DNA of 43,547 bases, from the NCBI GenBank assembly GCA_903845345.1, contig CAIMXF010000016.1, positions 1-43,547 of the forward strand. The letters are read 5' to 3'. The position numbers were made by a program, and so were the translations under genes. The notes beneath the pieces were generated by a model. The model did not search any database, was not told the origin of the DNA, and worked only from the letters and a program-made list of their open reading frames with translations. This DNA comes from an uncultured beta proteobacterium. Lineage in GTDB: Bacteria; Pseudomonadota; Gammaproteobacteria; Burkholderiales; Burkholderiaceae_C. This document shows positions 25,593-43,062 of the stretch, one piece after another. Within the stretch, counting starts at the first letter, position 1, and every line of letters starts with the position of its first letter.

Positions 25593-25614
25593 CCGGTGCG
25601 GTGCACCGCGCCGG
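25593..25614. promoter_or_regulatory. 22-bp palindrome in a divergent promoter region
   Basis: CCGG-T-GCGGTGCACCGC-G-CCGG is symmetric at 20 of 22 positions, with a perfect 12-bp core. It lies in the 285-base gap between the TPR-GAF-GGDEF gene and the first SARP-type gene, where an operator serving both directions would sit. Confidence 0.4.
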
Positions 25615-25757
25615 ACGGCAATCGACGAGAGTCGTCGGTTTCACAACGGTCGGGCTCGCCTGTGGCGCAAAGTGCAGCAAAGAATGATCGATCGCGAGGG
25701 TTCACAATCCACTGCACGCACAACGATCCTCCTGCAAGCATCGATTCACAGCTGCCG

Positions 25758-28700
25758 ATGAAACGTCCCAGCGCTGCCAATACGACCGTGGAGACCGCCC
25801 CGATCGAGATCCTGGTGCTGGGAGGATTCTCCGTGCGAGGGATCGGCGGGCAGGGCCTGGGCCAGATTGAAGGGCGCACCCACGTGCGGGCCCTGCTCGC
25901 CCTGCTTGCGGCACATCCTCAAGGCGTGCAGCGCGACGAGGTCGCCGACGTGCTCTGGCCCCGCCTGGGCGAGGCCGCGGCGCGAAATCGGCTGCATCAC
26001 ACCATGCATCTCGCGCGCCAGGCGCTCGGCGCGATCGCCTGGCCGGATGAGTGGCTCCAGCTGCAACAGGGTCGTGTCCAGCTGGATCCGCGGGTCGACT
26101 CGGACGCGCATCGGATCCTCCGCCTCGTGCAGCAGCCGCTGGAGGCCGCGTCGGAGGTGGATCTGCTCACCGCGCTGGACCAGTATCGCGGCGAGTGGGC
26201 GCCCGAAGTTGTCGCAGGAGGCCTCGGCCATACGGTGCGGCGCCAGTTCCAGGAAGCGCACGTCGCCTTGCTGAAGGAAGCCGCGCGCCGCCGCATCGCG
26301 GAGGGCGACGTCCCTGTGCGCAGGCAGTTCCTCGAACGCATCGTCGACATCCAGCCTGCCGACGAATGGGCCTACCAGCAGCTGATGCAACTCGATCTGG
26401 ATTCGGGCCGCCATCACGCCGCGCTGCGGCTTTTCGAGGCTGCCGGGCGCGCCCTCGGTCAAAAGCTGGGGCTTCGGCCATCGAAGGTGCTCGCCGACAT
26501 CGCCGCGGACGCGGCGGCGCGGATCGGCCCCGACGTGCGCCTGCACGATCGCCTCGCCGCGCCGGGTGAAATGCTGATCGACCGGGAACCGCTGATACGA
26601 GACATCTGCGCGGCACTGCGCAGCGGGCCCGGGGTGTGGAACGTGCACGGCCTGGGCGGAGTCGGCAAGACGGCGCTGATGCGCGAGGTGATGCGCCGCG
26701 CGGGGCCCACCCGTCCCGATGGCGTGATCTACGTGCCGTTGGGCGACGGCAAGGGCCCTTCCATCGCGCAGACGGTCTGCCTCGCCGCCGGCCTCGATCC
26801 CGAGAGCGAGCTCACCACCGAGGCCGCCTTCGCTTTGTTGCTGGCGTCGCGGGACATGCTGGTCGTGCTGGACGACCTCGATGAAAGACCCGAAGGCGCT
26901 TCGCTTCTCGCGGCCCTGCCCGCAGGCCTGCGATCGCGCGTGGTGGCGATCACGCGCGTTCCGGTGGCACTCGCCGAAGTGAACCACGTCGCCGTCCGCC
27001 CGCTGGGGGTTCCGGACGCTGACGCCCCGCTCGTCCAGGTACGGCTGTCGCCGGCGATCGCGTGCTATCGGCTGCGCCGGCCCGTCGCCGACGTCCATGA
27101 ATGGTCAGCCCAGCACTGGAGCGAAGTGATCGCCCTCGTGCGCAAGCTCGATGGCCTGCCCCTGGCCATCGAGCTGGCAGCGGCCCGCTCGGCCACGATG
27201 ACGGCCGGAGAGATCCTCGCGCAACTGGAGGCGAGCGCGGGCGACGATGAATCGCCAGGCTTGCACGACAGCAGTTACCTGCACGGACCGGTCGGTGCGG
27301 CCCTGGCGCTTTCGGTGCGGCTGCTCGGGCCGCACGCCCGCATCGTGCTGCATGGCTGCGCCGAACTGCCCGGCTGGTTCGCACCCGAAGATGCGATTGC
27401 CGTGTCGGAGGCGGCCGGACTCGGCAAGGGGCTCCCGCTCGCAGGCTGTCTCGATGAACTGGCAGATGCCGGGCTGCTCGAGCGTCGCGATGGCCGTTTC
27501 CGGATGCTGCATCTCACGCGCGATCACGCTCGCCGCGAGGCGGCGTACGCCGGGTTGTTGCCGGCCATCCGCCGCACCCGCATCGAGGCGATGGTGCAAC
27601 GCCTGCATCGCGAGGCCTGCGACATCGAATCGCCCGGATACACGCGCTGGATGGACACGCTCCTGGCCTGCCATGACGAGGCGCTGCCCCTGCTCGACGA
27701 GGTGGGCGCCGAGGACCCCGACTTGTTCCTCGGCTTACTGGTGCCGTTGATGCACTCGTGGGCGGTGCGCGGTCTGCTGACTCTCGGCTTGCGCTGGGCT
27801 CCGGTAGGCATCGCCGTGGCCGAAGCGGTCGGCGATCGCCAGGCGGCGGTCGGCGTTCGGATACTGACCGCGGCGTTGCTGATCGACGGCCGCCGTTTCG
27901 ACGAGGCGCTCACGTACTCGGGTGCCGCCCTGGCGGAGTTCGAATCCGGTGGCGGCGACGAGCTCTCGCCGGTCCTGCGGGCACACCTCGTGGCGCTGCA
28001 CGCCGAGGCCACGGCAGGCACGAGTCCGCTGGCTGTCGCACTCGGCGCCATCGATGCCGAACTGGCGGCGATGCAAGGTGCGGAGCAGCCGGGATGGTGG
28101 ACCTTGCAGGCAGCCAGGCTGGATCTGGGGCAAGCCATCGCGGTGGCGTCGATGCCCGGCGATCAGGCGCGCGTCTGGCCCGTCGATGCCTGGCGTGCAC
28201 GGTTGGCCGGGTCGCTGACCTGGTGCGATCTCCTGCTCGCACTCAGCGGTGGCGTACCGGGGATGGCGCCGCAGGAGCGGCTCGACCTCTGCGATGAACT
28301 GCTGGCCTGCGCACGGGAGCTGCGCGCGCCGCGTGCGACCCACGCCGCCTTGAGCCGTCGAGCGTGGGCGCAGATGGCATCGGGAAGGATCTCCGACGCC
28401 GAGGCGACCGTGATCGACTGGTACCGGCTCGCGCGAGCGGCGGGCCGCGACTCGGCGGCCACCTACGCCTGCCTGTGGCTCGCCGAGCTCTCGTGGCGGC
28501 GCGACGACGTGAACGGCTGTGCGCCCTGGATGGACGCCGCCAGGAAGCTTGTCGCTGACCTGCCGCACGCCAATTCCATGCGCATCAACGTCGCGCTTCA
28601 CGAGATCGTCATCGACGCGCTGCACGGCGCGCTGGCCGGCGGCATCGCGCGCTTCGTCGCATTGCCGGTCGATTTCATCGCCACCGCGCGTCGCACGGCA

Positions 28701-28967
28701 CTGGAACACGTGGTCGAGGCCGCCGCCTTGCTGGCCGCCCGATGCGGCCTGGCGCATCTGGCGACCACGCTCTCGCAGTCGCTCGGCGTGCTGTCGGACG
28801 CCAAGGACAACGTCGCGCTGGTGACCGACTTTCGGGCGCGCCATCTGACGAACGCTTCCCCCGTCCGGGAGGAGAGCCTGCTTGCCGCGGAACACGTCAT
28901 CGAACGCGCCCGGAGCGATCTGTTGACGCTGCATGAGTACTGGAGCGCCGCGCCTGCGGCCCGATGA
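25758..28967 (+). CDS. SARP/AfsR-type STAND regulator 1 (winged helix-BTAD-NB-ARC-TPR)
   Basis: This 1069-residue transcriptional regulator has an OmpR-like winged helix (IEILVLGGFSVRGIGG, then VQRDEVADVLWPRLGEAAAR, residues 16-95), a BTAD helical domain (about 100-255), and a STAND ATPase with Walker A GLGGVGKTALM near residue 300, Walker B MLVVLDDLDE near 375 and DGLPLAIELAAARS near 465. A long TPR-like C-terminal half follows. Such proteins are NTP-driven switches in which the repeats sense a signal. The family is best known in actinobacteria. The ATG at 25758 opens just before the domain, but no strong ribosome-binding site precedes it. Convergent with its paralogue. Confidence 0.9.
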   Translation: MKRPSAANTTVETAPIEILVLGGFSVRGIGGQGLGQIEGRTHVRALLALLAAHPQGVQRDEVADVLWPRLGEAAARNRLHHTMHLARQALGAIAWPDEWLQLQQGRVQLDPRVDSDAHRILRLVQQPLEAASEVDLLTALDQYRGEWAPEVVAGGLGHTVRRQFQEAHVALLKEAARRRIAEGDVPVRRQFLERIVDIQPADEWAYQQLMQLDLDSGRHHAALRLFEAAGRALGQKLGLRPSKVLADIAADAAARIGPDVRLHDRLAAPGEMLIDREPLIRDICAALRSGPGVWNVHGLGGVGKTALMREVMRRAGPTRPDGVIYVPLGDGKGPSIAQTVCLAAGLDPESELTTEAAFALLLASRDMLVVLDDLDERPEGASLLAALPAGLRSRVVAITRVPVALAEVNHVAVRPLGVPDADAPLVQVRLSPAIACYRLRRPVADVHEWSAQHWSEVIALVRKLDGLPLAIELAAARSATMTAGEILAQLEASAGDDESPGLHDSSYLHGPVGAALALSVRLLGPHARIVLHGCAELPGWFAPEDAIAVSEAAGLGKGLPLAGCLDELADAGLLERRDGRFRMLHLTRDHARREAAYAGLLPAIRRTRIEAMVQRLHREACDIESPGYTRWMDTLLACHDEALPLLDEVGAEDPDLFLGLLVPLMHSWAVRGLLTLGLRWAPVGIAVAEAVGDRQAAVGVRILTAALLIDGRRFDEALTYSGAALAEFESGGGDELSPVLRAHLVALHAEATAGTSPLAVALGAIDAELAAMQGAEQPGWWTLQAARLDLGQAIAVASMPGDQARVWPVDAWRARLAGSLTWCDLLLALSGGVPGMAPQERLDLCDELLACARELRAPRATHAALSRRAWAQMASGRISDAEATVIDWYRLARAAGRDSAATYACLWLAELSWRRDDVNGCAPWMDAARKLVADLPHANSMRINVALHEIVIDALHGALAGGIARFVALPVDFIATARRTALEHVVEAAALLAARCGLAHLATTLSQSLGVLSDAKDNVALVTDFRARHLTNASPVREESLLAAEHVIERARSDLLTLHEYWSAAPAAR

Positions 28968-29035: not shown

Positions 29036-32000
29036 TCAGGGGCGCACGAGCGATTCCAGGAGTTCGTCGAGCGTCGCTACGCGCACCGTCAGGCGGGTGG
29101 ATTCCTCGCTCGAGCCTTCGGACAACGCTGGCAGGCCTGCCCTCAGGTCGTGCGCGCGCTGTGCGACCCACAACCGCAGGCGGTGCTGCGGCCGGCGCGA
29201 GAATTCCGCCAGCCGCTCCAGCGCGCGCGTGGCCAGGTCGGGGCGGCCCAGGTGCAGCAAGAGGTCGGCGGCATTCACGCAATCGCCCTGCAGGTCCGGC
29301 AGATGCCTGTCGCGGGAAGGGATGTCCAGGAGTTCGCCGACGCGCCGGACCGCGATCGCCCGCGAGCCCTGCCGCGCGTCGAGCAGCGCAGACAGGGTTT
29401 CGACGCTGACGCGTGTTCCCATGTTGGCGCTCAGCTTGGCCTGCTCGCGCAATTCCGTCGCGAAGGCCCGCGCCACCGGCCAGGCACCCATCGCGTAGTT
29501 GGCCCAGCCCAGCAGCAGCAGCCCCCGCGTGGCCAGCGCGGGATGCCGGGTGACCTCGGGCCGTGCCATCAGCAGGGACGTGGTCTCGATCGCGCGCTGG
29601 AACTGCATGTCCGACATCAGTACCGCGGCGCGCAGCAACTCCGCCTTGGCCGCCTCGCTCTGGTCGGACAGCGCGCGTGCCGAACGCTCGACGTGCAGGA
29701 TGCACTGCTGCGCAAGGCTCGTGTCGCCAAGCGCAAAGGCGATCTTGGCGCGCATCTGCTGGCTCTTGAGCAATCCTCGCGTCAACCCGAAGTGGTTGAA
29801 GACGCCGACGGCCTCCGCGCACGACTGGAGCGCCTTGGCCAGTTCGCCCTGGCGCAGCGTCGCCTGGGCGACCCGCAACAGGCTCTCGCCAGCTTCGATG
29901 CCCTTGGCGTTGACCGACGGGGCGCGCGCACTGCCGGCCTGGGAGGCGCCGTAGCGGTCGATCAGCGAGATGGCCGCAGATCGCAGCGCCTGGTCGCCCG
30001 AAGTCCCGAGCCGCGATACGGCCCGGCCTGCATCCTCGAAAGCGCCGTGCAGTTGACCGAGCTGCGCTCGCAGCCTGGCGCGCTCGACGAACAATTGTGC
30101 CGCGCAGGCGTCCGGCACCTGTTCCATGTGTTCGCCCAGGCTGGTGAGCCAGTCCAGCACCCGCGGCGCGTGGCGCGAGCCGCCCCAGGCATGCCGCTGC
30201 GCGGCGCAGAGCGAGGCCAGGTCGGCGTGCCGCCCGCCGATCTGCCACTCGCGCACAAGGGCCTCGAAATCGTCGATGTGGTCGTCGAACCAGGTCGCTG
30301 CGCGCGTGACGGCCGCGAGTGTCGTGTCCGAAGGCGATGCACCCAGCGTCAGCCAGGCCGCGATGCGCGCCTGCACCGTGTGCGGCGGCAAGTCATCGCC
30401 GGCGATCACCTGCGCCGCGACCGCGTAGCGCGGCACCCTGAATTCACTCCAGGCGCCGTCGTGCGCCTGCCGCACTCGCCGCAGGAACAATTGCTGGCGC
30501 ACGGCCTGCTCGACCAGGCCGTGCACGGCCGCGGGTTCGCCGTCCCACAGTGCCGCCAGATCATCGCGGGAGAGCCAGCTCCTGCAGCGCCCGGCCAGGG
30601 CCAGCAGGCGCTTGAGGTCCGCGGAGGCCGACTCCACCCACCGCACCAGCGCTTCCCCCGCCGGCGAGGCGCTGCGCGCGACGTCGACCGGTCGCAGGGG
30701 ATCGCGCAGCAGCACGACGGGATCGCGTTCCAGGCGCGAGACCAGTTCGTTCGGCCACATCGTCTCCAGGACGCGGCCGGCGGCTTCCAGCAGTGACGGC
30801 AGCCCGTCGACGGCGAGCGCGATCGCCTCGACGGTCGCGCGCACGCGCTTGTCCTGCAGCGACCAGCCGTGGACGCCCGACCGATGCACCAGTTGCGCCG
30901 CCGGCGGCGGTGTCGCCGAGTCCGGGGAATGCAGCAGGTCGGTCGGATCGACGATCAGGTTCTTCTCGTCGCGCAGGCGCAGCGGGGTCTGGGCCGTCAC
31001 CAGCCATCGGACGTCCCTGTTCATCGCGTGCCACGCGGAGATGGCGCGCGCGATCTCCGGGTGGCAGGGCGAGGCCAGGCCGTCCAGCACGACCAGCAAC
31101 TCGCGGCCATGCAGCGCCTGCATGACGGCCTCCACGGTCGACTCGCAGCGGTCGCGAGGCATGAGGGCACGCGCCACCGCCAGAAGAAAGTCGGTGACGT
31201 GCGTGCTCGCGTTCTGGCAATCGATCCAGACGACCCCATGGCGGAAGTGACTCGAGGTGCGATGGCACAACTCGATCGCCAGCGCGGTCTTGCCGCAACC
31301 GGGCGGCCCGACGAGCGCAACGAGGGTCGAGTACGGATCGGCGAGCGTCCGCGACGCGGCCTCCAGCAGCCCCTGGTAACCGACGATCGCCTTGCGAAGC
31401 GGCAGCGCGGCACGCGCCGGCTCCGGCGCCATGGCGACGATGCCGGGTTCGGTTGCCGAGGCCGCCGCGGGCCGGTTCGCGCGCTGCTGGATGTCACGCA
31501 CCAGGTCGTCGAGGCGATGGACGGCGCCGCCATCCTCCTCTTTCAGCAGATCGCGGATGCTCCGGCAATGCGACACCGCGGCATCGGGCCGACCCCGATC
31601 GGCCATCAGGCTCGCGTAGACGCAATGAGCCTCGACGCCGGCCGAGGGGCGCAGGGCACGGCGCAACGCATATTGCAGCGCGAGATCGGTGTACTCGAGA
31701 TCGGTGGCGAGCTGGACCGCTTCCGCGAGAGCCTGGTCGAACAGGCCCGCCAGCCAGGCACGGCGCGACTCGATCTCGGACGACGAGTCCCAGTCGGTCG
31801 CCAGATCGTCCTGGTACCAATGAAGCGCTCGCGCCACCGCCGCGAACCGGCTTGCGTCGTCAATCGCTTCGGTCTCGAACGCGGCGAGAAACTCCTGCGC
31901 ATCGAGCAGCACGTCCGGCGGCAGCTTGAGCTCCACGCGCTCCGCGCCAACCACGATCTGTGGCCGCAGGGCCAGCGGCAGCGTCTCGAAGCCCTGGCGT

Positions 32001-32302
32001 ATCCAGTGGACGGTGTGGTGCAGCCTGTTTCTGGCGCGCTGCTCGTCGAAATCGGGCCACAGCGCGGCCAGCACCTTCGCACGCGACTCCGACAGGTGCC
32101 ACGCGCTGCCGAGCAACTGGAGCAGCCGGCGGGCGTGGGCGCGACGCCACAGGCCCGGGTCGAGCGCGGCGTGCCGGAACTCGGTGGCGAAAGCGCCCAG
32201 CACGCGGATGAGGCCCGCGGGCGCGCTGGCTTCTCCCGGCACCAGGGTCGCCGGGGAGGAAGACGAGGTGCGTGCGTCCGCGAATGCCGGTCGGGATTGC
32301 AA
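29036..32302 (-). CDS. SARP/AfsR-type STAND regulator 2 (winged helix-BTAD-NB-ARC-TPR)
   Basis: This 1088-residue paralogue of the convergent gene has a winged helix (LIRVLGAFATEF, then SESRAKVLAALWPDFDEQRA), a BTAD region (about 100-270), a linker rich in Ala/Pro, Walker A VGPPGCGKTALA (333-342), Walker B LLVVLDGLAS, a DGLPSLLEAAGRVLE motif and TPR-like repeats to the end. RARNRLHHTVHWIRQ matches ARNRLHHTMHLARQ of regulator 1 almost exactly. It starts with TTG at 32302, supported by AAGGAGA about 7 bases upstream. Targets cannot be read from the sequence; the nearby lipoprotein gene and the gene itself are the obvious candidates. Confidence 0.9.
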   Translation of the reverse strand: MQSRPAFADARTSSSSPATLVPGEASAPAGLIRVLGAFATEFRHAALDPGLWRRAHARRLLQLLGSAWHLSESRAKVLAALWPDFDEQRARNRLHHTVHWIRQGFETLPLALRPQIVVGAERVELKLPPDVLLDAQEFLAAFETEAIDDASRFAAVARALHWYQDDLATDWDSSSEIESRRAWLAGLFDQALAEAVQLATDLEYTDLALQYALRRALRPSAGVEAHCVYASLMADRGRPDAAVSHCRSIRDLLKEEDGGAVHRLDDLVRDIQQRANRPAAASATEPGIVAMAPEPARAALPLRKAIVGYQGLLEAASRTLADPYSTLVALVGPPGCGKTALAIELCHRTSSHFRHGVVWIDCQNASTHVTDFLLAVARALMPRDRCESTVEAVMQALHGRELLVVLDGLASPCHPEIARAISAWHAMNRDVRWLVTAQTPLRLRDEKNLIVDPTDLLHSPDSATPPPAAQLVHRSGVHGWSLQDKRVRATVEAIALAVDGLPSLLEAAGRVLETMWPNELVSRLERDPVVLLRDPLRPVDVARSASPAGEALVRWVESASADLKRLLALAGRCRSWLSRDDLAALWDGEPAAVHGLVEQAVRQQLFLRRVRQAHDGAWSEFRVPRYAVAAQVIAGDDLPPHTVQARIAAWLTLGASPSDTTLAAVTRAATWFDDHIDDFEALVREWQIGGRHADLASLCAAQRHAWGGSRHAPRVLDWLTSLGEHMEQVPDACAAQLFVERARLRAQLGQLHGAFEDAGRAVSRLGTSGDQALRSAAISLIDRYGASQAGSARAPSVNAKGIEAGESLLRVAQATLRQGELAKALQSCAEAVGVFNHFGLTRGLLKSQQMRAKIAFALGDTSLAQQCILHVERSARALSDQSEAAKAELLRAAVLMSDMQFQRAIETTSLLMARPEVTRHPALATRGLLLLGWANYAMGAWPVARAFATELREQAKLSANMGTRVSVETLSALLDARQGSRAIAVRRVGELLDIPSRDRHLPDLQGDCVNAADLLLHLGRPDLATRALERLAEFSRRPQHRLRLWVAQRAHDLRAGLPALSEGSSEESTRLTVRVATLDELLESLVRP

Positions 32303-32805
32303 GAAAATCTCCTTCTGTGATTGCGCGAGCTCGTCGTTGCCCGCCGGGAGCGACCGGCAAGAGGCGTCGAACAGGGCGAATCGCAGTCCAGCTTATCGCC
32401 CGTTCGTCGACGCTTGCGTAGCAGAAGGTGACGGCACCGAAAGGGTTAACCCTCAACCGTGAACTATTGAGCAAAGACTCGGCAAAGGCCCCGGTCGCCC
32501 GGTGCCATGTCGTGGAGCCCCGCACGGGCAGCACTCTTCAGCGCCACGCCGCGCGGCCACCCCGTTGCAGTGGGCATCGACCGCGCGGGTGCTTCATGTC
32601 GGTGCTGTTCCAGTAGCGCCCTGTGACCTTCGATGCCTCCGGATACCTGGATCGGGCGCTCTGGAAGCCGAAGAAAGCTGAAGAAAATCGGCGCCGGGAA
32701 CCATGGTCGAGCCGCCGAAGGCATGCAGGTCTGCCCGCATTGCAGGTCGGTGTCGCCCCCATTCACCCACCGGTGCCCGTCAGGCCGAAGCCCAGCCGTC
32801 GTCCC
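32303..32805. other. Divergent promoter region between SARP 2 and the haem lipoprotein
   Basis: This 503-base gap separates two divergent genes. It contains a perfect 12-bp palindrome (AGGGTTAACCCT, 32442-32453) and no convincing gene. The ORF-track start at 32623 is an extension of the lipoprotein frame; residues before its lipoprotein signal are shadow-like. Confidence 0.6.
32442..32453. promoter_or_regulatory. Palindrome AGGGTTAACCCT
   Basis: A perfect 12-bp palindrome sits 140 bases upstream of the SARP 2 start and 353 bases upstream of the lipoprotein start. AT-rich for this genome, it is followed by AACC-like repeats (AACCCTCAACCGTGAAC) at 7-base spacing. Operator function is an inference. 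Confidence 0.35.
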
Positions 32806-35004
32806 ATGTCGAATCCGTCCCGTCCCTTCGCCGATCCCCACGCGCGCCGCCGCCCCATCGCCGCCGCCTGCAGCCTGGCCCTGGCCCTGGCCGGCTGCGG
32901 CGGCGGATCCGGCAGCACGCCATCGAGTGCCGGCGGCGGTGCGGTCGCCAGCGCGCCGCCCGCCAGTTCTCCCGCCTCGAGCGCGGCCCTGAGCGCGGAT
33001 CAACTGGCACAGGCGCTCAGCGCCGGCGTGAAGATCTGGCGCCAGCAACGCATCGACCTCAATGGCGAGAACAAGGGCGCCTGCGCCAATTGCCACTCCG
33101 CCGACGGGATCGAGCTCGCGATCTGGAACTTCACCGGCGACGACGTGGTTCGCCGGGCGCATCTCGACGGTGTCAGCGCCGCGGATCAGGCGACCCTCGT
33201 CACCTACTTCGTCGCGATGCGCCAGAAGTACAACGTGGTCAAGCTGCGCGACGTCGAGACCGACCATCCGTTCCAGCCCGGCGGCACCTGGTACACCGGC
33301 AGCAGCGACGAGCGCGACCTGGCCTTCGCCAACGGATCGTTCAAGCAGGCGGCACCCACGTTGCTGGGCCCGCCCATCGCGACGCTGGCCGACGCGCAGC
33401 GCGCGATCCAGGAGATCCGGGCCAGCAATCCGCTGCAACTGAAGGTGGGCATCGAGCTGCCGCAGATCTCGCGCGACTGCGTGCGTCCCGGGGAATGTTC
33501 GCTCAACGACTGGATGTCCGACCTGCCGCGCTTTCCGAAGCCGGAGATGGAGGCGCAGTGGTTCGCGCTCAACGACGCCTACATCGCCAACCCGACCGAC
33601 GAGAACCTGCGCGGGCTGCTGCTGGCGGTCGACACCATGACCACGCCCTGGCTGCAGCCGGGCGAGACGACGATCGGTCCCGCGGGCTCGTTCGGAACCA
33701 CCAAGTTCAAGTCGATGCAGGTGCTGCAGCATTTCGTGCGGCGCGAGCAGCTGGGCCTGTTCTCGCCGGCCGACAACGTGGATCCGATCGCCAGCATCAA
33801 CGGCCCTGGCCTCGAGCGCTCGAACTTTCCGTTCCTGGTCGGAGACGCCGCTTTCGACAAGACCGACCAGCCCCTGGACAAGGCCAGCGAGCTGCCGGCC
33901 TTCGTGCGCACGAGCCTCGGCGAGACGCCCACCAACCCGCTGACCGACCAGGACGTCGCCGAGCAGAAGATCGCCTTGCGCACGCCCTGGTGGTGGGCCG
34001 GCTTCATGTTCGATCCCAGCCTGTCGACGGGCACGAACGGCGAGTACTTCATCGGCAACCTCAGCAATCCGGAGGACGGCGAAGGCTACGCGTTCCATCA
34101 GCTGTACGCGGGCGCGCGCAGCGCCGTGGATCCCGGCTACCGCGCCGTGCGCGGCATCGACAACTCGGCGACGCGATTGCCCCAGGGCCTGAGCATCGGC
34201 GGCGGGGGCGACTCGGCGATGCTCTTCGTCACGGCGGACGCGCGCCTGATGTACCGCCGCGCTGCGGTCAACTGGGTGCGGATGCACCTGTTGCTGCTGC
34301 AGGATCAACTGACGCAGTTCGGGCCCACGGCGTTGTCGTCGACCGACGTGCAGTCCTCGGGCTATGTCTGCAGTTCGGACTATGGGCACGGGCTGCCGGC
34401 CGCGGTGATGACCGCGGCGACGTTCGACGGCGCGGGCGCGCCCGTCGTCTTCGGCCTGTACAACAAGGTGCGCGCGCTGGCGGGATGCCCGGGGCAGCCG
34501 GCGCCTGCCACCTGGGTCGCGGGCAACGGCACCGGGCTGACGGTGCAATGGTTCGCTTCGATCGACCTCGCGACCAGCAAGACCGGCGCATCCCTCGGCC
34601 AGCGCGTGGAGCCCATCGAGTGGATGCCGCGCCAGGACGTCGAGCGCGGCTACTTCCGCGACTATCTCGCCAGCATCGGCGTGGCCGGCAATGCCGGCTC
34701 GCGCACGACCGGCACCATCGAGGCGCCGATTTCGGGCGACTACATCTTCGGAGAAGGGTCGCTGTCGCAAGGCCGGCTGTGGATCAACGGCCAGCTCGTC
34801 TACAGCTCCGAGAACCCGACCTCCTCGTTCGGCGGCGTCAACGTCAATCCCGGCGTCACGCTGCACCTCGACGCAGGCCAGAAGGCCACGTTCCTGCTCG
34901 AACGATACAACGTCGCATTCAACGGGATCAGCGTCGGCTGGGCAACCGCGGACGGCACCTTGCCGATGAACTCGATTCCGACGACGCAGCTGTTTCCGCA
35001 GTAG
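32806..35004 (+). CDS. Secreted lipoprotein with a c-type haem motif and a PA14-like C-terminus
   Basis: This 732-residue protein begins with a lipoprotein signal (SLALALAGC, Cys31) and a Ser/Ala/Pro/Gly linker. One CxxCH motif (CANCH, 93-97) near the N-terminus predicts covalent haem. The middle part (about 100-620) matches no family I recognise; it has conserved-looking Trp/Pro/Gly blocks such as LRTPWWWAGFMFDP. Residues about 640-725 read as a PA14-like beta-sandwich (YFRDYLASIGVAGN, then GSLSQGRLWINGQLVYSSEN), a carbohydrate-binding type of module. A role in polysaccharide oxidation is speculative. The ATG at 32806 is chosen for the signal peptide. Confidence 0.85.
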   Translation: MSNPSRPFADPHARRRPIAAACSLALALAGCGGGSGSTPSSAGGGAVASAPPASSPASSAALSADQLAQALSAGVKIWRQQRIDLNGENKGACANCHSADGIELAIWNFTGDDVVRRAHLDGVSAADQATLVTYFVAMRQKYNVVKLRDVETDHPFQPGGTWYTGSSDERDLAFANGSFKQAAPTLLGPPIATLADAQRAIQEIRASNPLQLKVGIELPQISRDCVRPGECSLNDWMSDLPRFPKPEMEAQWFALNDAYIANPTDENLRGLLLAVDTMTTPWLQPGETTIGPAGSFGTTKFKSMQVLQHFVRREQLGLFSPADNVDPIASINGPGLERSNFPFLVGDAAFDKTDQPLDKASELPAFVRTSLGETPTNPLTDQDVAEQKIALRTPWWWAGFMFDPSLSTGTNGEYFIGNLSNPEDGEGYAFHQLYAGARSAVDPGYRAVRGIDNSATRLPQGLSIGGGGDSAMLFVTADARLMYRRAAVNWVRMHLLLLQDQLTQFGPTALSSTDVQSSGYVCSSDYGHGLPAAVMTAATFDGAGAPVVFGLYNKVRALAGCPGQPAPATWVAGNGTGLTVQWFASIDLATSKTGASLGQRVEPIEWMPRQDVERGYFRDYLASIGVAGNAGSRTTGTIEAPISGDYIFGEGSLSQGRLWINGQLVYSSENPTSSFGGVNVNPGVTLHLDAGQKATFLLERYNVAFNGISVGWATADGTLPMNSIPTTQLFPQ

Positions 35005-36477: not shown

Positions 36478-39400
36478 TCACTGGGAATAGGCGCCGATCG
36501 TGTAGCCCGACTTCGACGGGCGGGCGTTGCCGTTGATGTCGGTGGCGGGCGCGAGCCGTGACGTGCCGCTGCCGATGGCCGGACTTCCGGCGCGCAGTTG
36601 CAGGCTGATCGATGCCGGCTTGGTGGTATCGATATTGGAATAGAGCGGGTCGCCGACCTTGTCGTGCGCGCCGTTGGCGCCGAAGGTGCCCCGGGAATTC
36701 GTCCCGCCGTAGTAGAGGTTGTAGTCGACGCTGCAACTGGTGCAGGCCGAGCCTTGCGTCACCGGATTCTGGGCCGCCAGGCTGTAGAAGATGTTGTTGA
36801 AGACATTGACGTCGCTGATCTGGCCCAGGTTCATCTCGCCCCGGCCGTTGACGTGCGTGGACTGGGCCGCGCTGAGGCCGGTCGGCGAGAGGACGTTGTC
36901 CAGCGTCGAATTGTTGACGACGTCCACGTGGGAGCTCTGGTAGACCTCGATGGCCGCGCTGCCGTTCGAATACACGACGTTGTTGGCGACCAGCGTCCGA
37001 CCGGTATAGGCAGGATAGGGCACCGTCGCGTCATACGCATTGTTGTGGTTGGAATCGATGATGATGCCTTCCCCGTCCGAGATGTAGCCCACCTGGCCCC
37101 ACGGGATCAGCTCCTGGTTGCCGTAGACGACGTTGTTGGTGATGATCATCTTGTACGGCGTGGTGGTGTCGGACGGATTCGAGTCGTAGTCGATCAGCGT
37201 CGAGATCCCGGAGCAGCCATACGCGGAGTACAGCGCGTTGTCGAACACGGTATTGCCCGAGATCGTGACGTAGTCGGCCCCGATGGTGGCGATGCCGCCG
37301 CCCGGGCATTCGGACACGTTGTTGTTCAGGATCCTCAGGTGGTGCGGATACGGCGGCGTCTTGGCCGCCTGCGCCGCGATGCAGTTGCCGTTGTACTTGG
37401 GGTTGGCCGCGGGATTCGATTCGACAGCCTGGGCGCCGGCCAGGGTCAGCGACGCGTTGTCGCCCACCACGGTGAACCCGTTGACTTCCACGTACTGGGC
37501 GGTCGGCGTGAAGAAGATGCCTTCCCAGATGCCATCGGTCTGGATGACCGGATGGGCGCCAGGATAGGCCTTGTAGGTGATCCAGGCATTCGCCGTCCCG
37601 GCGCTCGAGATCGACAGCACCGCGCCGCCGGTGTCGTTGGTGTAGGTGCCGTCCATCGCGAGCACGACCTGGCCGGCCTTGACGAAGCCGGATGCCCGCG
37701 CCAGCGTGCGGAAGGCGGTGCCGGGCGTCATCCCGTCGTGCGTGTCGACGCCGGTGCCGCTCACGTACCAGGCCGTCGTGCAGTTGATGGCCACGCCCGA
37801 CACGTTGGCGACCACGCCCGATCCGGTCGCGCCGGTGGTCGTGCAGAACTGGCCCACGGGTTGGCCCGTGACCGCCACCGCGTAGCTGCCGCCGTACGCG
37901 ACCGGCGTCGCGAACGTGAATGTGCCGTTGGCAGCGACGCTGGCGACGTTGCCGCCCGTCCCGCCGTTGTCGGTCAGCGTCACCGTCTGTCCGCTGGCCA
38001 GTCCCGTGACCGTGCCGCCGATCGTGTAGGTCCGCGTCGAGCAGGTGATCGCCACGCTGGTGACGTTGGCGTTCACGCCGGTTCCGGAGCCGGTGCCGGC
38101 CTGGACGCTGCACGTCTGGCTTGTCGGCTGCGTGCCGGCGGTCACCGCGTAGCTGCCCAGGTAGGCGACCTGGCTGGGGAACGTGAAGGCGATGGGCGCT
38201 CCGGTCCCGGTGAGCGTGGCGGTGTTTCCTCCGCCGCCGCCGTTGTCCGCCAGGGTCAGTGTCTGCCCGGAGGCGAGGCCGGTGACGGTGCCGCCGATGC
38301 TGTAGGAATCTTTCGAGCAGGCAACCGCCGTCGTCGACACGGCGCCTGTCACGCCCGCGCCGGATCCGGACGACACGCTGCACACCTCGTTGGCAGGCTG
38401 GGTGCTGATCGTGACCGCGTAGCTGCCCAGGTAGGGCACCTTGGTGGCGAACGTGTAGCCATCCGTGCCGCTGCCGCTGCCGGTGACGGTCTTCGCGTCG
38501 CCACCGTTGTCCAGGAGCGTGACGGTCTGGCCGGCCGCCAGGCCGGACACGCTGCCACTGATCGCGTAGCTGTCCTTCGCGCAGGTCAGCGAGATGCTGG
38601 ACACGTCGGCGTTGACGCCCGATCCTGCACCCGTTCCCGCGGCCAGGCTGCAGGCCTGGTTCGTCGGTTGAGTGCTGATCGTGACGGCGTAGCTGCCCTT
38701 GAACGGGACGCTGGTGGCGAACGTGAAGGCATCGGTGCCCGAGCCGTTGCCCGTGATCGTCTTCGCATCGCCGCCGTTGTCGAGAAGCGTCAGGCTTTGC
38801 CCGCTGGCCAGGCCGCTGACCGTGCCGCCGATCCTGTAGCTGCTGGCGGAGCAGGCCAGCGCGACGGTCGAGACGTTCGCGCTGACACCCGAGCCCGAGC
38901 CGGAGCCCGACGCCACGCTGCAGACCTCGTTGGTCGGCTGGGTGCTCACCGTGACGGCGTAGCTGCCCTGGTAGGCCACCGCGGTGGCGAACACGAAGCT
39001 GTCGCTACCCGTGCCGCCGCCGACGATGGTCACAGGATCGGCGCCGTTGTCCTTCAGCGTGAGGCTCTGTCCCGCGACCAGGCCGGTCACCTTGCCGCCG
39101 ATGGTGTAGTTGCTCTTCGAGCAGTTCAGGTTGACCGACGTGACGTTCGCATTGACGCCCGATCCGGAACCCGAACCGGAGGCGACGCTGCACGTCTCGT
39201 TGGTCGGTTGGGTGCTGATCGTCACCGCGTAGCTGCCGAGGTAGGCCACCTTCGTCGCGAACGTGTACGCGTCGGCTCCACTGCCACCGCCCGTGATGGT
39301 CTTCGCATCGCTGGCGTTGTCGAGGAGGGTGACGACCTGGCCCGCCGACAGCCCGGAGACGGTGCCGCCGATGGCGTAGGTATCCTTCGCGCATGTCAAT

Positions 39401-40836
39401 GCGATGGCCGATACGTTGGCATTGACGCCGGCGCCGGAGCCCGTGCCGGCCGCCACGCTGCAAGCCTGGTTCGTCGGCTGCGTGCTGATCGTCACCGAAT
39501 AGCTGCCGTTGAAAGGCACTCGAGTGGCGAACGCGAAGGCGTCGCTGCCCGTTCCCGAGCCGGTGACCGTGGCGGGATCGCCGCCGTTGTCGAACAGCGT
39601 CAGATGCTGTCCGGAGGCCAGCCCCGTCACGGCGCCGCCGATGCTGTAGCTGTCGGCCGAGCAGGTGAGCGCCACGGTCGACACGCTGGCGCCGATACCC
39701 GATCCGGTACCGCTGCCCGAAGCGACGCTGCACACTTCGTTCGAGGGCTGGGTGCCGACGGTCACGGCGTAGCTGCCCTGATAGGCCACGGCGGTGGCGA
39801 ACACGAAGGCATCCACGCCGGCGCCGCTGCCGGTGATCGTCAAGGGATCGGCGCCGTTGTCCTTCAGCGTGAGCGTCTGGCCCGCGAACAGGCCGCTCAC
39901 CTTGCCCCCGATGGTGTAGCTGCTCGCGGAGCAGTTCAGCGACACCGATGACACGTTCGCGTTCACGCCCGACCCCGACCCGGAACCCGACGCGACGCTG
40001 CAGACCTCGTTGGTCGGCTGGGTGGCCACCGTCACCACGTAGGCCCCCTGGAATGCGACCGGCGTCGCGAACGTGAAGGCGCCGTTCGCGGAGATCGTGA
40101 GGGAGTCTGCCCCGTTGTTGCGCAATGTCACCTGCTGCCCGCTCGCCAGGCCGGCGATCGTGCCGCCTATCGTGTAGCCGTCCGCCGAGCAGACCAGGGC
40201 CACGGATGCGACATCGGCGTCGACGCCCGACCCGGAGCCCGAACTCACGGTGCAGCTTTCGTTGGGCGCCGCACCGGAGATGACCACGGCGTAGCTGCCG
40301 CCTTCGTTGATGCGCGTCGGAAACGAGAAGGCGCCATTGCCGCTGACGACCACCGAATCGCTTCCGTTGGCCAGGGTGACGGACTGACCCGCCACCAGAC
40401 CCGAGGCCGTTCCCGACAAGGCATAGGTGTTGGCGGAACAGCTGACGTCGACGTCCGAGACCGCCGCGGTCACGCCCGCGCCGGTCGCGTTGTTGATCGA
40501 GCAGGTCTGGCTCGCCGGCTGGGTGACGATCGTCACGGCGTAGCTGCCGTTCTGCGGCACGGCGGTGGCGAAGGTGAACGGCTGGTTGGCGCTCAAGGTC
40601 TGCGTGTCGCTGGCGCTGAAATTCGAGCCGCTGCTGATCTTGTCGGTCAGGACGAGCGTCTGGCCGGCCGCCAGGCCAGACACACTGCCACCGATCGTGA
40701 AGCTTGCCGTCGGGTTCGTACCGCCGCCGTTGCCGTTGCCGTTGTTGTTGCCACCGCCACCGCCGCCGCCGCAAGCCGTCAAGCTCAGCGCGACCAGTGC
40801 ACCGGCGATAGTCCAGGAGATCGATGGAAATTGCAT
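36478..40836 (-). CDS. Large surface lipoprotein: eleven cysteine-paired repeats plus beta-helix domain
   Basis: This encodes 1452 residues. The start MQFPSISWTIAGALVALSLTAC gives a lipoprotein signal (Cys22) and then a Gly/Asn linker. Residues 45-1022 are eleven tandem repeats of about 89 residues (consensus YxIGGxVxGLxxGQxxTL, then FATxVxxxGSYAVTI and SGVxANVxxVxLxCS); each has two Cys spaced for an internal disulfide. Residues about 1023-1452 read as a right-handed beta-helix of the type in polysaccharide lyases and hydrolases (HLRILNNNVSECPGGGIATI, then VTISGNTVFDNALYS). A cell-surface stalk carrying a polysaccharide-active domain is an inference. The ATG at 40836 is preferred to the frame opening at 40950. 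Confidence 0.9.
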   Translation of the reverse strand: MQFPSISWTIAGALVALSLTACGGGGGGGNNNGNGNGGGTNPTASFTIGGSVSGLAAGQTLVLTDKISSGSNFSASDTQTLSANQPFTFATAVPQNGSYAVTIVTQPASQTCSINNATGAGVTAAVSDVDVSCSANTYALSGTASGLVAGQSVTLANGSDSVVVSGNGAFSFPTRINEGGSYAVVISGAAPNESCTVSSGSGSGVDADVASVALVCSADGYTIGGTIAGLASGQQVTLRNNGADSLTISANGAFTFATPVAFQGAYVVTVATQPTNEVCSVASGSGSGSGVNANVSSVSLNCSASSYTIGGKVSGLFAGQTLTLKDNGADPLTITGSGAGVDAFVFATAVAYQGSYAVTVGTQPSNEVCSVASGSGTGSGIGASVSTVALTCSADSYSIGGAVTGLASGQHLTLFDNGGDPATVTGSGTGSDAFAFATRVPFNGSYSVTISTQPTNQACSVAAGTGSGAGVNANVSAIALTCAKDTYAIGGTVSGLSAGQVVTLLDNASDAKTITGGGSGADAYTFATKVAYLGSYAVTISTQPTNETCSVASGSGSGSGVNANVTSVNLNCSKSNYTIGGKVTGLVAGQSLTLKDNGADPVTIVGGGTGSDSFVFATAVAYQGSYAVTVSTQPTNEVCSVASGSGSGSGVSANVSTVALACSASSYRIGGTVSGLASGQSLTLLDNGGDAKTITGNGSGTDAFTFATSVPFKGSYAVTISTQPTNQACSLAAGTGAGSGVNADVSSISLTCAKDSYAISGSVSGLAAGQTVTLLDNGGDAKTVTGSGSGTDGYTFATKVPYLGSYAVTISTQPANEVCSVSSGSGAGVTGAVSTTAVACSKDSYSIGGTVTGLASGQTLTLADNGGGGGNTATLTGTGAPIAFTFPSQVAYLGSYAVTAGTQPTSQTCSVQAGTGSGTGVNANVTSVAITCSTRTYTIGGTVTGLASGQTVTLTDNGGTGGNVASVAANGTFTFATPVAYGGSYAVAVTGQPVGQFCTTTGATGSGVVANVSGVAINCTTAWYVSGTGVDTHDGMTPGTAFRTLARASGFVKAGQVVLAMDGTYTNDTGGAVLSISSAGTANAWITYKAYPGAHPVIQTDGIWEGIFFTPTAQYVEVNGFTVVGDNASLTLAGAQAVESNPAANPKYNGNCIAAQAAKTPPYPHHLRILNNNVSECPGGGIATIGADYVTISGNTVFDNALYSAYGCSGISTLIDYDSNPSDTTTPYKMIITNNVVYGNQELIPWGQVGYISDGEGIIIDSNHNNAYDATVPYPAYTGRTLVANNVVYSNGSAAIEVYQSSHVDVVNNSTLDNVLSPTGLSAAQSTHVNGRGEMNLGQISDVNVFNNIFYSLAAQNPVTQGSACTSCSVDYNLYYGGTNSRGTFGANGAHDKVGDPLYSNIDTTKPASISLQLRAGSPAIGSGTSRLAPATDINGNARPSKSGYTIGAYSQ
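37771..40704 (-). repeat. Eleven-copy coding tandem repeat
   Basis: Eleven units of roughly 250-280 bases encode the stalk of the large lipoprotein. Units 4-6 (39112-39921, 810 bases) and 7-9 (38308-39111, 804 bases) resemble each other in order: 4 and 7 share GGKV and KDNGADP, 5 and 8 share VPF(N/K)GSY and TNQACS, 6 and 9 share the (V/P)YLGSY segment. A three-unit block was therefore probably duplicated. The repeats also create long antisense ORFs. Confidence 0.9.
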
Positions 40837-41247
40837 GGATTCGTTCAAGGAAGGCGGAAGAGGATGCGACGCGACCTGCGAACGCGATCGAGGCCGGATC
40901 GTCGGCGCTCGCGCTTCGCAAAGCGACGGGATGGCCCCGGCCAGCACCAAGCCGCCTGGGCGGACGATGCCGTATCGAGGCGTTGCCAGGGCATTGTGGT
41001 CATCGGCTTCGCGGCAAGGCTTTATCGCACTTTGCTGCGAGCGATCCGGGTGTGAGTGGATGCAAGAGAGCTACCGGCAAAGCAGCGCAAAGCGCCCGCA
41101 CAACGCACTTTGAGTAACTGCAACCCACGCCCCCCCAGCCTTTCGAGTCTGCGCAAGAAGGCGGGTCCAGGACCCGTGCCTGTCGATCGAGAGTGCTGCA
41201 CGCCGCATCGCTGCGGTCCCCATCTTCCACCTACGGAGAGTTGCGAA
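40837..41247. other. Divergent promoter region of the lipoprotein and sedolisin genes
   Basis: In 411 bases I see no gene. Two palindromes lie near the sedolisin start: CGGGTCC-A-GGACCCG (41162-41176) and CCGCA-TCGC-TGCGG (41203-41216), both in what is probably its 5' leader. A GGAGAG ribosome-binding site follows before the ATG. Confidence 0.55.
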
Positions 41248-43062
41248 ATGAAGACCTATCTGAACGTGATCGGCCCTGTGGTGCTTGCGGCATTCGCGCT
41301 GCCGGCCGTCGCGTCCACCGTTCCCGCACAAGCGTCCTCGAAGCGGGCTGCCAGCCCCGACCAGCAAGTCGAATTCGAGGTCTTCATGCCTTTGCGCAAC
41401 GAGGCAGAACTCGACCAACTCCTGGCCAAGCAGCACGACCAGGCCTCGCCGCTCTACCGACATTGGCTCACGCCGTCGGAATTCAACGATCGCTTCGGCG
41501 CGAGCGCCGAGGCGGTCGAACGCGTGAGAACTTCGCTCGAATCGCGACATCTTCACGTCACGAGGCTGCATGCCCAGGGCATGCATGTGATCGGCAGCGT
41601 GGCCAGCATCAATGCGGCATTTGGTTCGAACCTGATGGAAGTCTCGCGCGCCGACGGACGCTCGCGCATCCAGGCACGGCGCGCTCTGCAGCTGCCCGCC
41701 GAACTCGCGAACGAGAACGCCGTGGTGGCCGCGTTCAGCAAGATCCGGGAGCGCCACCTGAACCTGAAGACGGTCGGGTCGATCAAGGACGGGCCCAACA
41801 ATCGCTACTCGGAGACCGGCGCCTACTGGTTCACCGACATCAAGCAGGCGTACGACTTTCCTTCCTACCAGGCCTTGTCCGGCAAGGGCGTCACCGTGGC
41901 CATCGTGATGGCAAGCGACTACCTGGACAGCGACATGACGCTGTATTTCGGCCATGAGAAGCTCAGCCCGCCCAAGATCGAACGAATCCCGGTGCTGGGC
42001 GGAGCGCCTTTCGATCCCAACAGTGGCGCCTCTGCCGAAGTGTCGCTGGACATCCAGCAGTCCGGCGGGATGGCACCCAATGCACGCATCAAGCTGTACA
42101 ACATTCCGGACCTGTCGGACAACTCGGTGCTGACCGCGTACAACGAGATCGTCCAGACCAATTCGGCCGACATCGTCAGTTCGTCGTTCTCGGGTCCGGA
42201 GGCAGGCTATCTGGCCTCGTACAACGACGGCACCGACTACACCTCGATCCTGACGCAGACCTATGAGGCGATCTTCAAGCAGGGCAACGCGCAAGGCATC
42301 ACTTTCGTGGCGAGTTCCGGCGACTCCGGAGGCCTGGACATTCCCGGCACCGCCTATTTCAATTCCCCGCCGTCGGCCGCCGCCAGGTTCGAGCCGGGCG
42401 TCGAGCACCCGGCATCAAGTCCGCACGTCACCGGTGTCGGCGGCGCGAACCTGATCACCACGAGCACGCCCGGCAGCCTCGCTTCCACCTATCTGTCGGA
42501 GAATGCCTACGGGGATCCGGAGGTTCCGTATGACCCTTACGGCCAGGGCGTGAACGTCGCTGGCGGCTACTGGGGATCGGGCGGTGGACAGAGCCAGGTG
42601 TTTGCGCGGCCCGGCTACCAGTTCCTCGTGCCGACGGGCTCGACCATGAGGACGGTGCCGGACGTCTCCCTGCAGGAAGGGGGGTGCCCGCTGGGGCTTT
42701 CCCAGTTGCCATGCGGAGCGCAGCGCAGTGCGGTCGTGCTGGCCTTCGGAGGCCAGCTCAGCGGCGCGATCGGCACGAGCGTGTCGGCGCCGGAGTTCGC
42801 AGGGCTTCTTGCACTGGCCGAGGAAAGCCTGGGCGGAAGACTTGGAAACGTGAACAACCTGCTCTATGTCGAAGCCGCCTTGCAGGAAGTCGATCCCCGC
42901 CTCAAGTTCTTCCATACCAACCAGGCGGGATTCAACGGCTACGAGTACACGAAGCCCGTCTACAACCAGGTCCTGGGCGTCGGAACTCCGTACGCAAAGA
43001 GGATGATCCTGAGGGCCGATCTGCCGTCTGCCGGTGATCCCCAGACTCCTTCGAATCCCTGA
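41248..43062 (+). CDS. Sedolisin-family serine protease (peptidase S53)
   Basis: This 604-residue secreted protease has a signal peptide (residues 1-22), a pro-kumamolisin activation domain (about 40-165, including SPLYRHWLTPSEFNDRFGAS) and a subtilisin-like catalytic domain. The acid triad is visible: Glu264 and Asp268 in GASAEVSLDIQ, the oxyanion Asp359 in ASSGDSGG and Ser511 in IGTSVSAPEFAG. These enzymes usually act at low pH after autocatalytic removal of the pro-domain. The C-terminal calcium loop is unusual: the position expected to read FHDI reads FHTN. The ATG at 41248 has GGAGAG nearby; the track's earlier start is not needed. Confidence 0.93.
   Translation: MKTYLNVIGPVVLAAFALPAVASTVPAQASSKRAASPDQQVEFEVFMPLRNEAELDQLLAKQHDQASPLYRHWLTPSEFNDRFGASAEAVERVRTSLESRHLHVTRLHAQGMHVIGSVASINAAFGSNLMEVSRADGRSRIQARRALQLPAELANENAVVAAFSKIRERHLNLKTVGSIKDGPNNRYSETGAYWFTDIKQAYDFPSYQALSGKGVTVAIVMASDYLDSDMTLYFGHEKLSPPKIERIPVLGGAPFDPNSGASAEVSLDIQQSGGMAPNARIKLYNIPDLSDNSVLTAYNEIVQTNSADIVSSSFSGPEAGYLASYNDGTDYTSILTQTYEAIFKQGNAQGITFVASSGDSGGLDIPGTAYFNSPPSAAARFEPGVEHPASSPHVTGVGGANLITTSTPGSLASTYLSENAYGDPEVPYDPYGQGVNVAGGYWGSGGGQSQVFARPGYQFLVPTGSTMRTVPDVSLQEGGCPLGLSQLPCGAQRSAVVLAFGGQLSGAIGTSVSAPEFAGLLALAEESLGGRLGNVNNLLYVEAALQEVDPRLKFFHTNQAGFNGYEYTKPVYNQVLGVGTPYAKRMILRADLPSAGDPQTPSNP

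Follow-up and report, generated by a model that had tools for sequence, protein, structure and literature searches.

Bacteria have few redox proteins that are physically linked to polysaccharide degraders, and these are poorly understood; it is an open question how electrons are supplied or drained in the extracellular space. Among the polysaccharide-associated multidomain cytochromes already known are Cbp2D, TERTU_3803 and PSCyt proteins with carbohydrate-binding modules (CBMs) (PMC8981238, PMC12542752, PMC10916295, PMC5615132). Specifically, Cbp2D of Cellvibrio japonicus and TERTU_2913 and TERTU_3803 of Teredinibacter turnerae, with their X158, X183, X132 and X122 domains, are secreted proteins that join single-CxxCH modules to domains of unknown function (PMC8981238, PMC12542752, PMC10916295), often bear CBMs and are tied to polysaccharide use. 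The X183 cytochrome c of the CBM-bearing Cbp2D has been proposed as an electron donor to LPMOs (PMC8981238). A second group, the 'Planctomycete-specific' PSCyt/PSD proteins, combines one (or two) haem motifs with large domains of unknown function and with CBMs that include PA14 (PMC5615132). From the DUF1587 annotation of Cbp2D, we infer that X132 corresponds to PSCyt/PSD Pfam domains.

The window analysed here, a stretch of 43,547 nucleotides from an uncultured betaproteobacterium, encodes a protein of similar general design, in which a large domain without a family name comes after a single-CxxCH module. The sequence places this window protein in a rare group, here called subfamily B, that is related to a widespread family A. 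This soil bacterium probably uses the protein for polysaccharide redox chemistry outside the cell. The features of the locus are as follows.

32303..32805, no strand: intergenic region of 503 bases between the window gene and the divergent AAA/SARP-like regulator gene 29036-32302 (-)
32806..35004, + strand: gene for the 732-residue lipoprotein, with signal/lipobox, haem-c module, large domain and C-terminal PA14 (sequence, Pfam, codon bias)
32806..32898, + strand: lipoprotein signal peptide with lipobox LAG^C, Cys31 at 32896-32898 and Gly at +2 (sequence)
32986..33285, + strand: cytochrome c module, residues 61-160, through the conserved (P)FQPGG (hhalign to family A; better-predicted part of the window model)
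33082..33096, + strand: CANCH haem-attachment motif, residues 93-97 (motif and conservation)
33166..33168, + strand: Asp121, 24 residues after the haem His (alignment of family A and subfamily B)
33286..34530, + strand: large central domain, residues ~161-575, common to subfamily B and including His309 at 33730-33732 (B alignment)
34534..35001, + strand: PA14 domain, residues 577-732, with GSLSQG in place of the SDDG-type motif (Pfam, 6qdi alignment)

The frame runs from an ATG at 32806 to a stop at 35002-35004, and its GC content by codon position (0.64/0.52/0.89) shows a gene-like codon bias, which bears out the long clean frame of the original prediction. An in-frame GTG at 32623 would lengthen it at the 5' end; the ATG is preferred because the lipoprotein signal follows it. 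This signal consists of an Arg-rich n-region, a hydrophobic stretch and the lipobox, so that the lipoprotein assignment, too, holds. In E. coli, the residue at +2 after the lipobox Cys bears on outer-membrane sorting, and by this Lol rule the Gly of the window protein points to the outer membrane. No sigma-70 consensus was found in the 503-base region upstream. Beyond it lie two adjacent large SARP/AfsR-type ATPase regulators with BTAD and NB-ARC or AAA_22 domains, at 25596-28967 (+) and 29036-32302 (-), the latter divergent from the haem lipoprotein gene. A secreted pro-kumamolisin (S53-type) peptidase is encoded at 41239-43062 (+).

The gene is single copy in its own genome, and exact-peptide scans with its product found no match in 84,980 genomes, viral contigs and plasmids, nor in 399 genomes of its own phylum. 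Most low-E matches of a first search for relatives extended over the lipoprotein signal or the PA14 domain only, and comparable signals were seen in many unrelated Burkholderiales lipoproteins. Two larger proteins of the same genus, with lipoprotein-like signals of their own, have the haem module in common with the window protein. Profiles made from these two yielded family A, with 154 confirmed loci among 177 candidate stretches, in at least six phyla: it occurs in Betaproteobacteria, Gammaproteobacteria, Bacteroidota, Myxococcota, Acidobacteriota, Verrucomicrobiota and Bdellovibrionota, with examples in Scleromatobacter humisilvae (L030), Roseateles, Massilia, Caballeronia and Archangium. 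Some Sphaerotilaceae carry three or four paralogues per genome, as in Roseateles noduli HZ7 (L035, L036, L038, L045) and Rhizobacter sp. SG703 (L031, L032, L058).

Searching the family-A-bearing genomes with the core of the window protein then revealed subfamily B. Its first members came from a Polaromonas MAG (L110, E 2e-30), a betaproteobacterial MAG (L111/L131) and a Myxococcota MAG (L112), and their profile added five further myxococcal proteins (L152-L156). The nine proteins comprise the window protein, those of two betaproteobacterial MAGs and six from Myxococcota; the other eight share 22-35% identity with the window protein, and their alignment covers haem module and central domain alike, L131 being ended by its contig edge. 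In the tree, a branch with 100/100 support separates B from A, and the window protein sits on a long branch. Profile comparison by hhalign joins B to A from the haem module to about window residue 223 (prob 98%, E 1e-13). Both have the same order of elements, a cytochrome c module with CxxCH, (P)xQPG and then the large domain, and this order together with a weak alignment makes homology of the window central domain and the family-A large domain likely past residue ~223 as well. Family-A proteins are likewise secreted or lipoproteins, and have features of their own: a beta-sandwich ahead of the haem module, the signatures PWNPPYQPGPG and PDWNxWxPxxHPxD, and a His at +24 from the haem His that never varies.

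The haem module itself is supported by several lines of evidence. The window protein contains exactly one CxxCH, against a composition expectation of about 0.001, and its residues 68-159 align with family A at prob 96% (E 3.3e-9). Cytochrom_C Pfam matches are weak and appear in 11 of 52 family-A cores (best E 0.006); in a Foldseek search with a family-A model, the one sensible match, and a weak one, was the small cytochrome c SorU over the haem module, at a prob of 0.44 and a TMt of 0.53 only. The original prediction of a single haem site is thereby upheld, and the conservation on which it was staked is found: CxxCH is kept in 9/9 subfamily-B proteins, and of 80 family-A picks 78 have it, the exceptions being a fragment (L060) and an apparent wrong-frame translation (L034). 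Since the motif is never lost among intact members, its retention argues that the haem, which would occupy this site, matters to the family.

The residue at a candidate position for the second haem ligand differs between lineages. Position +24 holds a His in 52/52 proteins of family A and 6/6 of myxococcal B, where it sits before the last helix of the cytochrome c module; the three proteobacterial B proteins all have Asp there, which in the window protein is Asp121. In small cytochromes the distal ligand is expected ahead of the module's last helix, and the His of family A and myxococcal B is a candidate for this role. In the window protein, His309 of the central domain, invariant in 9/9 B proteins, could serve as a substitute.

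The central region had been described as matching no known family, and this assessment has withstood searches of Pfam, NCBIfam and the PDB by sequence, none of which gave a significant match at residues ~100-570. PA14 proteins were the sole PDB matches of the window protein, profiles of its cytochrome module and large domain found nothing significant among PDB chains, and the family core as a whole has no Pfam or NCBIfam entry. The proposed structure prediction and fold comparison succeeded in part. With 52 sequences, the model of a family-A core (L089) came out mostly helical and confident (pLDDT 89.7, pTM 0.90), with no PDB fold match at E <= 0.001 in Foldseek. For the window protein, family-A rows alone gave a model with a pLDDT of 45.7, which was left out of the fold search for this low confidence.

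At the C-terminus, the PA14-like domain is real, just above the PF07691 gathering score (24.8 bits against 24; E 2e-5), and it aligns with the PA14 protein 6qdi at E 3e-7. This alignment shows that the SDDG/DNG-type motif before the LWI(D/N)G strand is missing from the window domain, which has GSLSQG instead; the ordinary PA14 of L007 keeps SDDG. The domain occurs in none of the other eight B proteins and in 1/46 family-A proteins, and appears to be a lineage-specific add-on, a spacer or contact module. Because it is not conserved in the family and its SDDG motif is replaced, the PA14 domain is itself no evidence for sugar binding, as the original prediction had taken it to be.

Better evidence comes from the relatives. 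One B protein (L153) carries GH16 (E 6e-27), CBM2 and CBM56 together with its B core, and as a laminarinase-type GH16 and CBM56 fusion it offers a direct lead to the substrate. It is encoded as a single 1408-residue frame (G1200 contig C75, 2056-6279 (-)) in which CBM2, CBM56, GH16 with EIDIMEN and the B haem core are all found, and on this sequence it is a natural glucanase-cytochrome fusion. L154 has a fused CBM2, L131 has dockerin-like repeats, and two myxococcal B proteins (L152 9402-11417 (+), L155 8493-11012 (+)) have an extra N-terminal CBB3-type cytochrome c and hence two haem motifs. Family A shows ricin-type lectins in 7/46 proteins, a PL4-domain-III CBM in 7/46 and T9SS sorting tails in 4/46. 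Pfam CDtoxinA matches in relatives were rejected as toxins, being cross-matches of the ricin-type beta-trefoil. The fusions with GH16, CBM2, CBM56 and ricin lectins support a polysaccharide link of the family, and the lipobox together with the relatives' sorting tails and lectins supports an extracellular location.

Gene neighbourhoods are less telling. No CAZyme operon surrounds the window gene, the neighbours of family-A genes vary, and no conserved neighbourhood or operon was seen around the family. The beta-helix lipoprotein to which the window gene had been linked lies 1.5 kb downstream, convergent and with a DUF3667 gene between, and proximity alone proves nothing. It is a 1490-residue lipoprotein-like frame (36478-40950 (-)) with tandem ~70-residue IGGxVxGLxxGQ repeats and a right-handed beta-helix end. 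Two B genes of one myxococcal genome also lie near pectate-lyase-like or beta-helix genes, and as a glycan link these beta-helix genes are suggestive only. One family-A gene (P0004) adjoins genes for a GSDH dehydrogenase and a GH9 cellulase: in a betaproteobacterial MAG, the cluster L027 1440-11816 (+) encodes these two, a further protein and a family-A haem protein, several of them with dockerin-like repeats by eye.

The most likely model, to which we give about an even chance, is one in which the window protein is an outer-membrane-anchored haem-c protein working at extracellular glycan, where it exchanges electrons with a sugar-oxidising enzyme or with its own glycan-bound large domain. It belongs, as a rare and divergent member, to a family that spans several phyla and combines a cytochrome c with a large, mostly helical domain; it would be anchored in the outer membrane and probably exposed at the surface. 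The large domain would most likely engage extracellular glycan or its breakdown products, or dock a partner enzyme there; the haem would carry electrons in or out; and the PA14 domain, specific to this lineage, would act as a spacer or contact module. A secreted, GSDH-type (PQQ) sugar dehydrogenase is a plausible partner. GSDH genes are present in 12/12 genomes checked, the window's own included, which is weak support given that they are common in general. The only GSDH-type match of the window's own genome (G000:C334:13840-14827 (-)) is split between several frames and contains an internal TGA, and is either a pseudogene or a MAG error. Because the gene neighbourhood is not conserved, it identifies no partner enzyme. 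Against the model stand the lack of a bona fide CBM in the window protein, the missing SDDG motif of its PA14 domain and the low confidence of its full structural model. The original idea of a surface redox protein acting on polysaccharide is partly supported: it retains its haem-c module, its extracellular location and its polysaccharide link, and catalysis on polysaccharide stays a conjecture.

The most interesting alternative, unlikely but deserving attention, makes the haem a catalyst: in the His-to-Asp branch, proteobacterial B proteins would have lost the distal ligand and gained a five-coordinate or substrate-accessible haem c, which might attack glycan or another extracellular polymer in the manner of a peroxidase or oxygenase. 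The change of an otherwise invariant His at +24 fits this idea, as do the many invariant residues of the large family-A domain around the haem module. It is weakened in that this His is only a candidate ligand, that His309 or another residue could take its place, and that there is a single haem motif; the RoxA/RoxB rubber oxygenases, whose manner of action it resembles, are di-haem proteins. We hold a distinctly low expectation of a narrower version, in which proteobacterial B proteins would be haem-c enzymes with an open sixth site that oxidatively modify extracellular glycans on a fold without known match. If true, such an enzyme would be a haem-iron counterpart of the copper LPMOs.

Rather doubtful is a second alternative, which would make a hydrolase, lyase or binding protein of the large domain and give the haem a structural or regulatory (redox-sensing) purpose without electron transfer. 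The hydrolytic context of the GH16 fusion and the GH9-like helical proteins among the weak Foldseek matches of the L089 model (E > 1, TM 0.16) are consistent with it, as is the lack of a known fold; that none of these Foldseek matches is significant and that the motif is retained in every intact member speak against it. Surface electron transfer unrelated to polysaccharide, to humics, metals or in extracellular respiration, with lectins and CBMs for matrix attachment, seems more doubtful still. It would agree with the missing CAZyme operon and the varied family-A neighbours, and it is countered by the recurrent glycan-module fusions, one with a GH16 catalytic domain, and by the single haem, unlike the multihaem proteins of extracellular respiration. 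Finally, a role as direct electron donor for LPMOs is suggested by analogy with the architecture of Cbp2D and TERTU_3803 (PMC8981238, PMC10916295) and by the AA10 (LPMO_10) genes of both genomes with CBM2-fused B proteins. It is very improbable for the window organism because, in a search that covered the AA10 family, such genes were absent from 22 of 27 family-bearing genomes, its own (93% complete) among them.

The new family adds to this field a group that spans at least six phyla, is nameless in Pfam and NCBIfam and has no PDB fold match, that bears on the question of extracellular electron supply, and whose compact members of about 630 residues make it experimentally tractable. Unlike Cbp2D and the TERTU proteins, the window protein has no CBM2 or YceI domain, and its genome encodes no AA10 LPMO. 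X183 structures are in the PDB, and neither the A2 nor the A3 profile drew an X183 entry among its PDB matches down to the cut-off of E = 10. The PSD4 proteins examined share a CxxCH near the C-terminus of the core, whereas that of the window protein lies at the core start. Membership in PSCyt/PSD was rejected at an hhalign prob < 6% against PSD4-containing proteins, and no PSD4 gene was found in the window genome. The di-haem enzymes MauG, CcpA and RoxA were ruled out by the one CxxCH of the window protein, where two are needed. No paper describing families A or B was found in a literature coverage that was partial and lay outside the CAZy X-module list. Taken together, polysaccharide-linked cytochromes as such are already known, and families A and B are apparently a widespread, undescribed group of them.
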